In this document: positions 10,854 to 47,053 of the stretch, piece after piece
Layout: every line of letters begins with the position of its first letter
Numbering within the stretch: the stretch's first letter is position 1
DNA from: a marine actinobacterium MedAcidi-G1
GTDB taxonomy: Bacteria > Actinomycetota > Acidimicrobiia > Acidimicrobiales > MedAcidi-G1
Length of the DNA stretch: 64,000 nt
Direction of reading: 5' to 3'
NCBI GenBank assembly: GCA_000817085.1
Contig: JUEM01000006.1
Coordinates: 1 to 64,000, forward strand
Made by a program: the position numbers and the translations under genes
Notes under the pieces: generated by a model
Told to the model about the DNA's origin: nothing
What the model saw: the letters and a program-made list of their open reading frames with translations, nothing else
Database searches by the model: none

Positions 10854-10870
10854 TAAAATAATGATCAATG
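10854..10870 (+). promoter_or_regulatory. Probable -10 box of a leaderless or near-leaderless queA promoter
   Basis: TAAAAT (10854-10859) ends eight bases before the queA ATG. No ribosome-binding site lies between. The spacing fits transcription starting at or within two bases of the ATG. Confidence 0.4.
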
Positions 10871-11884
10871 CATCTTAACGAGTTTGACTACGACCTTCCT
10901 GACTCTGCAATAGCGCAGGAGCCATTGCCGATTAGGACAGACTCGCGCCTATTGATAGATATAGAAAACCAGATCCGGCACTCAAGAATTTTGGACTTTC
11001 CCGAAATTATAAAACCAGGTGACTTGATCGTAATGAACAATACGAGAGTCCTGCCTGCACGTTTCCACACACATAAACCAACTGGTGGAAAAGTAGAGAT
11101 TCTTTTATTAGAAGAAACTGGAAAAGAAAATCAATGGGAAGCATTGGTTAAACCAAGCCGAAAAATAGATCATGGAACTGTTTTTAAACTTGGTGAAGAT
11201 TTTGAAATTGAAGTAGAAGATGATCTTGGAGAGGGATTAAGGAAAGTTCGTTTAGACGTAAAAGGAGAATTTATTCCGACAATCGAGAAATATGGAGAAA
11301 TGCCCCTTCCTCCATATATAAAAACAAAACTAGAAGACAGAGATAGATATCAAACTGTTTATAGCGAAAAAGCAAAATCTGCTGCAGCTCCGACTGCAGG
11401 ACTTCACATGACCAAAGAATTGCTCGACAGATGTATTGGAAAAGGTGCAAAAATAGAATTTTTGGAACTTGTAGTTGGATTAGATACGTTCCGACCTCTA
11501 AATTCACAAAATATTGATGACCATAAAATGCATTCTGAGTTTTACAATGTGCCTGAAAATGTCATTGAAGCATGCGCACAAGCTGAGAGAGTGATAGCAG
11601 TAGGTACGACAACAGTAAGAGCTCTTGAAACAGCAGCATTAGGTAAATTAGAAGGAAGAACTAATATTTTTATAAAACGACCCTTTGATTTCAAAATTGT
11701 TGACCTCCTTTTAACTAATTTTCATCTCCCAAGATCAACTTTGCTTGTAATGCTCGACGCGTTCTTAGGGGAAAGATGGCAATCTCTGTATAGAGAGGCA
11801 CTACATGAAAATTACAGATTTCTTTCTTTTGGGGATGCGATGCTTGTGCAAAGGCAATTTCTCGGTAACTATGCTGGTCACTAA
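10868..11884 (+). CDS. queA: tRNA preQ1(34) S-adenosylmethionine ribosyltransferase-isomerase
   Basis: QueA moves the ribosyl part of SAM onto preQ1 at tRNA position 34, giving epoxyqueuosine. It has 338 residues with the family segments FDYDLPDSAIAQEP, MNNTRVLPAR, APTAGLHMT and the C-terminal NFHLPRSTLLVML. Its stop overlaps the tgt start by one base. Queuosine genes are missing from many actinobacteria such as mycobacteria, so the pair is informative about lineage. No other queuosine gene is in the window. Confidence 0.95.
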   Translation: MHLNEFDYDLPDSAIAQEPLPIRTDSRLLIDIENQIRHSRILDFPEIIKPGDLIVMNNTRVLPARFHTHKPTGGKVEILLLEETGKENQWEALVKPSRKIDHGTVFKLGEDFEIEVEDDLGEGLRKVRLDVKGEFIPTIEKYGEMPLPPYIKTKLEDRDRYQTVYSEKAKSAAAPTAGLHMTKELLDRCIGKGAKIEFLELVVGLDTFRPLNSQNIDDHKMHSEFYNVPENVIEACAQAERVIAVGTTTVRALETAALGKLEGRTNIFIKRPFDFKIVDLLLTNFHLPRSTLLVMLDAFLGERWQSLYREALHENYRFLSFGDAMLVQRQFLGNYAGH

Positions 11885-12993
11885 TGAGAGCTGATTTTGA
11901 TTTAGAAAATAAAGACGGAGAAGCAAGAACAGGTATTGTAAGACTTGCAACTGGCTCTTTCAAGACCCCTTGCTTCATGCCCGTGGGGACAAGGGGCTCC
12001 GTTAGACATTTATCTTCCTTGGATTTAAAAGACCTAGGAGCTCAGGTAGTTTTAGCGAATACTTACCATTTAATGCTCAGGCCAGGCGCAGAAATAGTGA
12101 AAAATGCCGGCGGTATCGGCTCGTTTGCGAATTGGAAAGGTTTAACATTAACCGACTCAGGTGGGTACCAGATATTTTCACTTGCTCCAAAAATAGATGA
12201 AGAGGGAGCGACGTTTAGATCCGTTTACGATGGTTCTTTTCATAAATTAACACCAGAAAGTTCTGCTGAGATACAAGCTGATATCGGTGCGGACATCCAA
12301 ATGGTTTTAGATATATGTCCGGCTTTGCCAGCACCAGAAGAGACTATAAAAGAGTCTGTAGAAATGACTGCCGCATGGGCTGAAAGAGGAAGAAAAACTT
12401 TTATCGATCATCCTGACGCTTCCTCCCGGCAAAGTCAGTTCGGAATAGTTCAGGGAGGAATTAATTCTGCATTAAGAATTGAAAGTGCGCGACGTACTTT
12501 AGAAATCGGTTTTGATGGTTATGCCATAGGAGGATTGAGTGTTGGTGAGGGTAGAGATGAAATGCTTGATTCAGTCTCAGTAGTAACTGATTTGATCCCT
12601 GAAAGTCAACCACGATACTTCATGGGGTTAGGTGATCCGGTTGGCTTAGTGAATGTCGTTGAAAGGGGAGTAGACATGTTTGATTGTGTTTTGCCAACCC
12701 GTTTAGCCCGACACGGTACTGTTTTAACTTCAGAGGGAAGAATCAATATTGGGAATGCGCGTTTTGCAAAAGACGACAAACCTCTTGATCCAGGATTTCC
12801 ACAAAGTCCTGGAAATCATTGGTCGAGATCGTATTTACGGCATCTAATGGCTACAGATGAACCGACCGGAGCACGTATTTTGACTTTACATAATCTTGCA
12901 TGGCTTTTTAACTTCGTTGAACGGATGAGAACTTCTATAAATGAGAATGAATTTGACAACTTTCGGAAAGAAACTTTAGATATTTGGTCTTGA
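11884..12993 (+). CDS. tgt: tRNA-guanine transglycosylase (bacterial Tgt) without the zinc cysteines
   Basis: Tgt exchanges guanine-34 for preQ1 in GUN-anticodon tRNAs. At 369 residues it is full length. The general acid/base D91 (LTDSGGYQIFSL), the nucleophile D267 (DMFDCVLPTR), the GLSVGEG loop and the histidine H336 (TLHNL) are all present. The CxCxxC zinc site normally found after PLDxE is absent: residues 304-310 read GFPQSPG, followed by NHWSRSYLRHL. Three of four zinc ligands are thus missing while the catalytic core is kept. Adjacent queA supports the queuosine role. Confidence 0.92.
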   Translation: MRADFDLENKDGEARTGIVRLATGSFKTPCFMPVGTRGSVRHLSSLDLKDLGAQVVLANTYHLMLRPGAEIVKNAGGIGSFANWKGLTLTDSGGYQIFSLAPKIDEEGATFRSVYDGSFHKLTPESSAEIQADIGADIQMVLDICPALPAPEETIKESVEMTAAWAERGRKTFIDHPDASSRQSQFGIVQGGINSALRIESARRTLEIGFDGYAIGGLSVGEGRDEMLDSVSVVTDLIPESQPRYFMGLGDPVGLVNVVERGVDMFDCVLPTRLARHGTVLTSEGRINIGNARFAKDDKPLDPGFPQSPGNHWSRSYLRHLMATDEPTGARILTLHNLAWLFNFVERMRTSINENEFDNFRKETLDIWS

Positions 12994-45205: not shown

Positions 45206-47053
45206 ATGAATGCCCGAAATAAAAATGATCAGCTGACTTTTGAATCATCGCTTGAATTTACTGAAGATAATGAATCTAAAATTTTTACTTCTAATGAAGC
45301 TACGTCGCGATTGTGGGCAGTAAGAGTTCTTCCTGATGTTCCAGCTGTCGATAAATCATTCGACTATTCCGTTCCGGAAGCATGGATTGAAGATGGAAAA
45401 GCTGATCAAATAGCAGTCGGGACCATGGTCAGAGTGCCTTTTAATGGAAGGCAGGTAAATGGTTGGGTATTAGAGATTAATGTCCAACCTGAAGAAGGAA
45501 TAAATCTACTTCCGTTATCCAAATATAGAGGTGTTGGGCCTTCTCAGGAAGTGATAGATCTGGCTCGTTGGGCAGCGCGTCGTTGGGCAGGTCGACTTAA
45601 TAGGTTTTTGACTACGGCTTCACCACCAAAGAATGTTCCATCGTTGAAACAAGTTCAACCCGGTTTAGAAAAAACAAATGCTCCCGAACACCAAAAAGTT
45701 TGGTTCCAAGAAATAGTAAAACGAAAAGAGGTTGTTCTTAGACTGCCACCATCAGAGGACAATGTCGCAATAGCATCTGAATTTGTATGCAGGGGCAATA
45801 CCCTGATCCTCTTTCCTTCAATTTCGGGTGCACAGAAACTTGCTGCGGGGTTAAAGAGAAAGGGATTACAGGTTTCAGTAGTCCCCGAACAATGGCAAAA
45901 TGCTGCCGTTGGAGGTTCTGTAGTGGGAAGCCGGTCCGCAGTATTCTCTCCAATAGTCGACCCTCAGGCAATTGTTGTGTTTGATGAACACGACGCTTCC
46001 TATCAAGAAGAACGTACTCCAACATGGAATGCACGTGACATAGCTATAGAACGTGCAAAAAGAAAAGAAATACCTTGTGTCTTAGTTTCTGCAATTCCCA
46101 CGTTGGAAGCGATTTCATGGGGTCATCAAATAAAGCCTTCGCGTAAAGAAGAACGAGATGGTTGGCCAATAGTTGAAATAATCGATAGAAGAGTTGATGA
46201 TCCGATACGGTCCGGTCTTTTAAGTCAGAAACTTACTCCAATTTTAAGAGATGAAACAGGTCCTATTGTTTGCATTTTGAATAGAAAAGGTCGTTCACGG
46301 TTATTGGCATGCAACCGATGCGGTTCTCTCGCAAGATGTGAAAAACATCTTATTCCTTTGAGTCAAAAAGAAGATCATACACTTGAGTGCTCATCTGGTT
46401 GCAAGGATCGTCCGGTCGTATGCGATTCTTGTGGATCAACAAAATTCAAAAACTTACGTGCAGGGATAGCAAGGCTTAGAGAAGAATTAGAAGCACTATC
46501 TAAGAGAGAAGTCGTAGAGATAAGTTCAGATTCAAAGGGAAAAATCCCTTATTCAGATATTTATATTGGCACTGAAGCAGCCCTTCATAGAGTGGAAAGA
46601 GCATCTCATATAGTTTTCTTAGAATTTGATCAAGAACTATTGGCACAAAGGTTTCGAGCGGCTGAGCAGGCAGCCTCTCTATTAATTAGATCTGCTCGGA
46701 TAATAGGTAAAAGGGATGATGGAGGCAGATTAATAGTTCAAACTCGGCAACCAGATCACGAAGTTTTACAAGCTGTTCTTCACGCAAATCCAGAAAAATT
46801 AATCGAAACGGAATCTGAGAGACGAAAGTTGTTGCAATTGCCGCCTTACAGTGCTTTGGCTCAAATTTCGGGGGCTTCGGCTTCTGAAATGGTCAAATCT
46901 CTTAGTCAAATTTCTGGTATTGAAATTATGGGCCCACGCGATGATCGTTGGCTAATTCGTGCTGCTGATAATCATGAGTTATCAAAAGCTATTTCGAGCG
47001 TGGGCCGACCAAAGGGAAAAATTCGAATAGAAATTGACCCCAGAAGGGCTTGA
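45206..47053 (+). CDS. priA: Primosomal protein N' (PriA), actinobacterial form without helicase motifs
   Basis: A PriA homologue of 615 residues. The N-terminal DNA-binding region begins VRVLPDVPAVDKSFDYSVPE. Where active PriA has GVTGSGKTEVY there is VVLRLPPSEDNVA, so Walker A is absent. The DEEH box reads FDEHDASYQEER. The zinc region (CNRCGSLARCEKH, then ECSSGC and VCDSCGS) is retained. The C-terminal RFRAAEQAASLL block is also recognisable. Helicase-dead PriA is known from actinobacteria; a structural restart role is inferred. Confidence 0.9.
   Translation: MNARNKNDQLTFESSLEFTEDNESKIFTSNEATSRLWAVRVLPDVPAVDKSFDYSVPEAWIEDGKADQIAVGTMVRVPFNGRQVNGWVLEINVQPEEGINLLPLSKYRGVGPSQEVIDLARWAARRWAGRLNRFLTTASPPKNVPSLKQVQPGLEKTNAPEHQKVWFQEIVKRKEVVLRLPPSEDNVAIASEFVCRGNTLILFPSISGAQKLAAGLKRKGLQVSVVPEQWQNAAVGGSVVGSRSAVFSPIVDPQAIVVFDEHDASYQEERTPTWNARDIAIERAKRKEIPCVLVSAIPTLEAISWGHQIKPSRKEERDGWPIVEIIDRRVDDPIRSGLLSQKLTPILRDETGPIVCILNRKGRSRLLACNRCGSLARCEKHLIPLSQKEDHTLECSSGCKDRPVVCDSCGSTKFKNLRAGIARLREELEALSKREVVEISSDSKGKIPYSDIYIGTEAALHRVERASHIVFLEFDQELLAQRFRAAEQAASLLIRSARIIGKRDDGGRLIVQTRQPDHEVLQAVLHANPEKLIETESERRKLLQLPPYSALAQISGASASEMVKSLSQISGIEIMGPRDDRWLIRAADNHELSKAISSVGRPKGKIRIEIDPRRA

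Follow-up and report, generated by a model that had tools for sequence, protein, structure and literature searches.

Bacterial tRNA-guanine(34) transglycosylase (Tgt) supplies tRNA with the modified base from which queuosine is made, and a zinc ion normally holds the enzyme together. The zinc domain has been called a hallmark of TGTs in the structural literature (PMC6165067). Here, we describe a Tgt encoded in a window of 64,000 nucleotides, the first part of contig JUEM01000006.1 of the marine actinobacterium MedAcidi-G1. This protein shares with the bacterial enzymes of Zymomonas mobilis (PDB 1pud/1q65) and Escherichia coli (PDB 10fa-10fc) the fold, the catalytic aspartates, the preQ1 pocket, the dimer hot spot and queA as a neighbour. 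It differs from both at the Cys3His structural zinc site, where all three Cys ligands are gone and F, Q and G stand in their place within a hydrophobic, proline-containing loop.

The window Tgt scores 414.9 bits against the TIGR00430 equivalog model, above the cut-off of 306.75, and 432 bits against PF01702. It is the sole Tgt copy in the genome; no second, zinc-bearing Tgt was found elsewhere in this 1.68 Mb draft (84% complete). Identity as an archaeal TgtA was rejected, as the score of 111 bits is below that equivalog cut-off (350). Residues 300-320 read PLDPGFPQSPGNHWSRSYLRH, and the corresponding stretch of zinc-bearing Tgts reads PLDPxCxCxxCxxYSRAYLRH. Because the two stretches are equal in length, with no insertion or deletion, F305, Q307 and G310 occupy the three Cys ligand positions. 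The preliminary description of this DNA had placed GFPQSPG at residues 304-310, listed D91, D267 and H336 as retained and noted the adjacent queA, and all of these observations agree with the gap-free alignment and gene coordinates (Table 1). QueA, the next enzyme of the queuosine pathway, is well above the cut-offs of both of its models (379 bits versus 324 for NF001140; 331 versus 267 for TIGR00113). Adjacency of queA and tgt is common to both types of Tgt, being seen at 57/64 zincless and 71/98 zinc-bearing loci with room to see it.

Table 1. Features of the queA-tgt locus, in window positions.
Feature	Position	Strand	Basis
queA, next queuosine-pathway enzyme; 1-base overlap with tgt start	10868..11884	+	NF001140, TIGR00113
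tgt, tRNA-guanine(34) transglycosylase, zinc-site-less, 369 aa	11884..12993	+	ORF, TIGR00430, PF01702
D91, general acid/base (Z. mobilis D102)	12154..12156	+	invariant in alignment
D267, catalytic nucleophile (Z. mobilis D280)	12682..12684	+	invariant in alignment
GFPQSPG (residues 304-310) in place of xCxCxxC	12793..12813	+	gap-free alignment
F305, first Cys ligand position	12796-12798	+	gap-free alignment
Q307, second Cys ligand position	12802-12804	+	gap-free alignment
G310, third Cys ligand position	12811-12813	+	gap-free alignment
W313, Y317, H320 (Z. mobilis W326, Y330, H333), dimer-interface hot spot, kept	12820..12843	+	alignment
H336, fourth (histidine) zinc ligand, kept	12889..12891	+	alignment

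Because the window lies in an incomplete draft genome (84%), a sequencing error, a frameshift or a decaying gene might be suspected behind the missing ligands, and error had been raised as a concern in the preliminary description. However, a Cys-free GFP-type loop is present in 8/8 sampled congeners, which come from separate assemblies and are 86-94% identical, and the loop is likewise Cys-free in the 22 further family members collected. The frames are free of stops, and dN/dS for tgt is 0.03-0.05 in the six congener comparisons that allowed its calculation; the figure is rough, as most pairs have a dS close to 1 or higher. By this measure the gene is under strong purifying selection, and error or decay is ruled out for practical purposes, its probability being negligible. 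In a different genome (G217, contig C13, 36201-37276), two Tgt match pieces lie two bases apart in different frames, which suggests an assembly frameshift in that sequence.

To place the loop in context, we used 314 Tgt proteins from named genomes, from relatives, from samples of the order, class and phylum, and from regions taken from these; the named genomes were chosen by similarity to the query, so the set is no balanced census. Of these, 213 have the ligand trio CCC, 6 have HCC and 95 have a broken site, so the site is not near-universal, contrary to what had been supposed. Broken sites retain no Cys in 78 cases and one Cys in 17, giving a two-peaked distribution in which exactly two of the three Cys occur only in the six HCC proteins. 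Within the window's order, 15 of the 45 sampled families are wholly zincless, 30 are wholly zinc-bearing and none is mixed. The intact CxCxxC is missing from all near relatives but present elsewhere in the order, so the refuting condition named earlier, relatives with an intact motif, has a mixed outcome. Beyond this order, the sampled Tgts of the class are zinc-bearing, and so are those of the remaining classes of the phylum. We found no description of the zincless clade in the open-access literature searched, although absence there is no proof.

Outside the phylum, a broken site is found in Caulobacterales, Hyphomicrobiales, one of two Sphingomonadales, one Verrucomicrobiales and one Balneolaceae genome. 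Tgts of Rhizobiales and Caulobacterales (Sinorhizobium meliloti L333, Mesorhizobium L014, Caulobacter L019) lack the zinc site as the window Tgt does, but represent a separate loss: their loop is S-x-C-P-A-S/T, with one Cys left, and in Rhizobiales the histidine ligand is gone as well. The HCC proteins, all from actinobacterial family f104 (L283, L296, L300, L302, L304, L308), depart from CxCxxC like the window Tgt. However, with His at the first Cys position four ligands are still possible, so this is no loss, and a Cys2His2 site is likely from the residues present. It should also be noted that one acidimicrobial-type Tgt in the collection (L002, CAMCTW010000008.1) is titled as a Bifidobacterium breve MAG; it is 93% identical to L004, from Acidimicrobiales, and the bin is probably mislabelled.

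A Tgt tree of 279 rows, with the loop columns left out, requires at least 8 changes of zinc-site state, 7 of them forced by well supported branches. The alphaproteobacterial, Balneolota, Verrucomicrobiota and acidimicrobial zincless Tgts are separate cases in this tree, which points to four or more independent losses among bacteria, although counts of state changes cannot separate loss from regain or transfer. Within the order, an IQ-TREE analysis needs 7 state changes (3 forced by well supported branches). Constraining all zincless rows of the order together was not rejected (AU p = 0.127), and a single loss within Acidimicrobiia is neither shown nor rejected by these trees.

Functional evidence comes from one of the other lineages. 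The S. meliloti Tgt (CP090106, L333) scores 479 bits against TIGR00430 and reads PLDEQSSCPATRDYSRAYLHH...SWNN, its four ligand positions being occupied by Ser, Cys, Thr and Asn. The record from which it was taken (CP090106.1) is called S. meliloti plasmid pSymB, but is 3.7 Mb long and carries tgt, which in strain 1021 is on the main chromosome; it is probably a mislabelled chromosome. In S. meliloti 1021, queC, queF and tgt mutants have the same phenotypes, and added preQ1 rescues the queC and queF mutants but not tgt or queA (PMC3568095). These phenotypes are genetic evidence that the site-less Tgt functions downstream of preQ1 in vivo. So a Tgt without the zinc site works in a living cell, on the strength of genetic phenotypes from strain 1021 and a sequence from strain Ak57, in a lineage whose replacement loop is unlike the acidimicrobial one.

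An AlphaFold2 model of the window Tgt has a mean pLDDT of 92.6 (93-96 over residues 301-320), and its closest PDB match is the Z. mobilis TGT (TM 0.96, 1.3 A), so the TIM-barrel Tgt fold is retained. Helices are predicted at 309-312, 315-323 and 327-353. The model of the zinc-bearing relative L004 has the same helices, shifted by its own numbering, and matches Z. mobilis TGT equally (TM 0.96, 1.5 A). AlphaFold does not model metal and often yields the folds of metal sites without it; the model thus supports the fold, and does not speak to the absence of zinc or to stability without it.

The residues that have replaced the ligands in zincless Acidimicrobiia follow a pattern. The Cys1 position is F in 66%, L in 12% and W in 5% of these proteins; the Cys3 position is A in 62%, V in 12%, S in 9% and T in 9%; position 309 is P in 81%; and the Cys2 position is unconstrained. 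The preliminary description had suggested that the fold might be stabilised by a loop rich in Pro, His and Trp. The Pro part of that suggestion stands, whereas H312 is conserved in only 5% of zincless Acidimicrobiia and W313 is a normal dimer-interface position that is found in zinc-bearing relatives too. Stabilisation by other means is nevertheless supported by the confident, unchanged fold, the purifying selection and the clade-specific hydrophobic and proline consensus. The segment that runs from the PLDP stretch to the C-terminal helix, usually tied by zinc, would instead be held by packing, with the Cys1 position filled by a hydrophobic residue (Phe, Leu or Trp), the Cys3 position by a small one (Ala, Gly, Val or Ser) and Pro309 beginning the short helix. 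In the window Tgt, F305 would then be packed into the vacated site, and bound zinc would be absent.

The catalytic, pocket and dimer residues are conserved. D91, D143, C145, Q190, G217, V220, E222, D267, R273, Y317 and H320 are identical in 100% of the 95 zincless Tgts. D143, C145, Q190, G217, V220 and E222 are the residues of the preQ1 pocket (Z. mobilis D156, C158, Q203, G230, V233 and E235); C145 and V220 correspond to C158 and V233, which together set the specificity for preQ1 versus queuine (PMC3660597). F81, W313, Y317 and H320 correspond to F92, W326, Y330 and H333, which form the aromatic hot spot at the Z. mobilis dimer interface (PMC5395182); this hot spot is retained in all or nearly all zincless Tgts (n = 95). 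With both sets kept, the determinants of substrate and dimerisation are those of an ordinary bacterial Tgt. The window Tgt is expected to be catalytically active: D267 would attack C1' of G34 in GUN tRNAs so that guanine is swapped for preQ1, after which QueA and then QueG would complete queuosine. QueG is encoded elsewhere in the same genome (G000, contig C18; 251.7 bits versus 200).

In the genus, no QueF was found in 9/9 sampled genomes (G000 and congeners G001-G008), and although these are drafts of 68-84% completeness, a nine-fold absence is telling. QueC had no convincing match in 8/9 of the same 68-84% complete drafts, only marginal fragments; strong matches occur in G001 alone and are perhaps contamination. 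De novo supply through QueC and QueF was thus not seen in the genus, and neither were the transporter families YhhQ and QueT. As none of the four is recognisable, the genus probably salvages preQ1 through an unrecognised carrier, for which no candidate emerged. Across the order, QueF matches fall into a strong group of about 98-118 bits and a weak group of 38-81 bits, and among zincless families most show a weak match or no match; the weak form is possibly a divergent QueF subfamily.

We considered whether the zinc site was lost along with an old function, the enzyme having changed its substrate or partner (another 7-deazaguanine, another tRNA or a heterodimer). The lack of QueF, YhhQ and QueT and of a convincing QueC in the genus would fit such a change, as would the contrast within the order, where QueF above 85 bits is found in 1/15 zincless versus 20/30 zinc-bearing families (hand tally; Fisher p = 0.00013). 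However, this correlation is confounded by shared descent, which alone could produce it. QueA and QueG are present and both require preQ1-tRNA, C145, V220 and the aromatic hot spot are kept throughout or nearly so, and with a single Tgt per genome there is no paralogue to pair with. The earlier suggestion of changed partners or substrate is therefore not supported, every catalytic, pocket and hot-spot residue being in place, and we regard it as quite unlikely. The same low standing applies to a more specific version, in which acidimicrobial zinc loss went alongside loss or divergence of QueF and salvage, with the C-terminal region acquiring an altered tRNA range, partner or salvaged base.

A different metal site, built from other residues, might have replaced the Cys3His site. 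H336 is kept in 100% of zincless Acidimicrobiia, a possible sign that this residue still has a role, old or new, and the HxCxxC of family f104 indicates that ligand swaps occur. However, no C/H/D/E column near the site reaches fixation in the zincless clade; gains of such residues, at positions 42, 175, 176, 229, 325 and 343, are partial (43-59%). H312 is not conserved, Rhizobiales do without the histidine too, and a replacement site is accordingly very unlikely. Economy of zinc, with a zinc-poor habitat trimming zinc proteins in general, is in keeping with the small genomes of the genus and with zinc-independent replacements known for other proteins, including QueD (PMC2770081). Against this, zincless families span genomes of 1.3 to about 5 Mb, the zincless Tgt is fixed rather than a second regulated copy, and, in a check covering three proteins, L36 of the genus is still of the zinc type (Cys/His set) and the zinc motifs of the window's AlaS and PriA are intact; we consider general zinc economy improbable. 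The PriA-like protein (45206-47053) has paired zinc-type cysteines (CNRC, CDSC); the 3' DNA-binding domain, at residues 41-140, gives its single Pfam match, and its helicase domains are not recognised.

Very probably, then, the window encodes an ordinary, working, preQ1-specific homodimeric Tgt in which nothing but the structural zinc site has been lost, with the segment held by packing. As for the cause of the loss, the best fit would be that a dispensable structural metal was replaced neutrally or nearly so and the change then became fixed. The two-peaked ligand counts, together with the histidine having followed in Rhizobiales, suggest that once one ligand is gone the others may drift quickly. 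Zinc-free (C-minus) ribosomal proteins and other zinc-independent paralogues offer a parallel, in that a structural zinc is replaced by packing, as we propose for the window Tgt. However, C-minus forms are usually second, zinc-regulated copies, whereas this Tgt is the only copy and its type is fixed across whole families.

Taken together, we favour a known enzyme in a genuine variant form that spans the clade, stabilised another way, over one with a changed partner or substrate. As site-less Tgts score as equivalogs, the comparison of sequences shows the Cys3His site to be usual but not defining for bacterial Tgt, and CxCxxC is unsafe as an annotation marker of a functional enzyme. Four or more lineages have lost the ligands, nearly always in full and with no loss of catalytic, pocket or dimer residues, a clean natural experiment in giving up a structural metal. 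Zinc in Tgt seems to be dispensable scaffolding and no part of the machine, and zincless Tgts provide material for asking whether the metal matters in dimerisation or tRNA binding.
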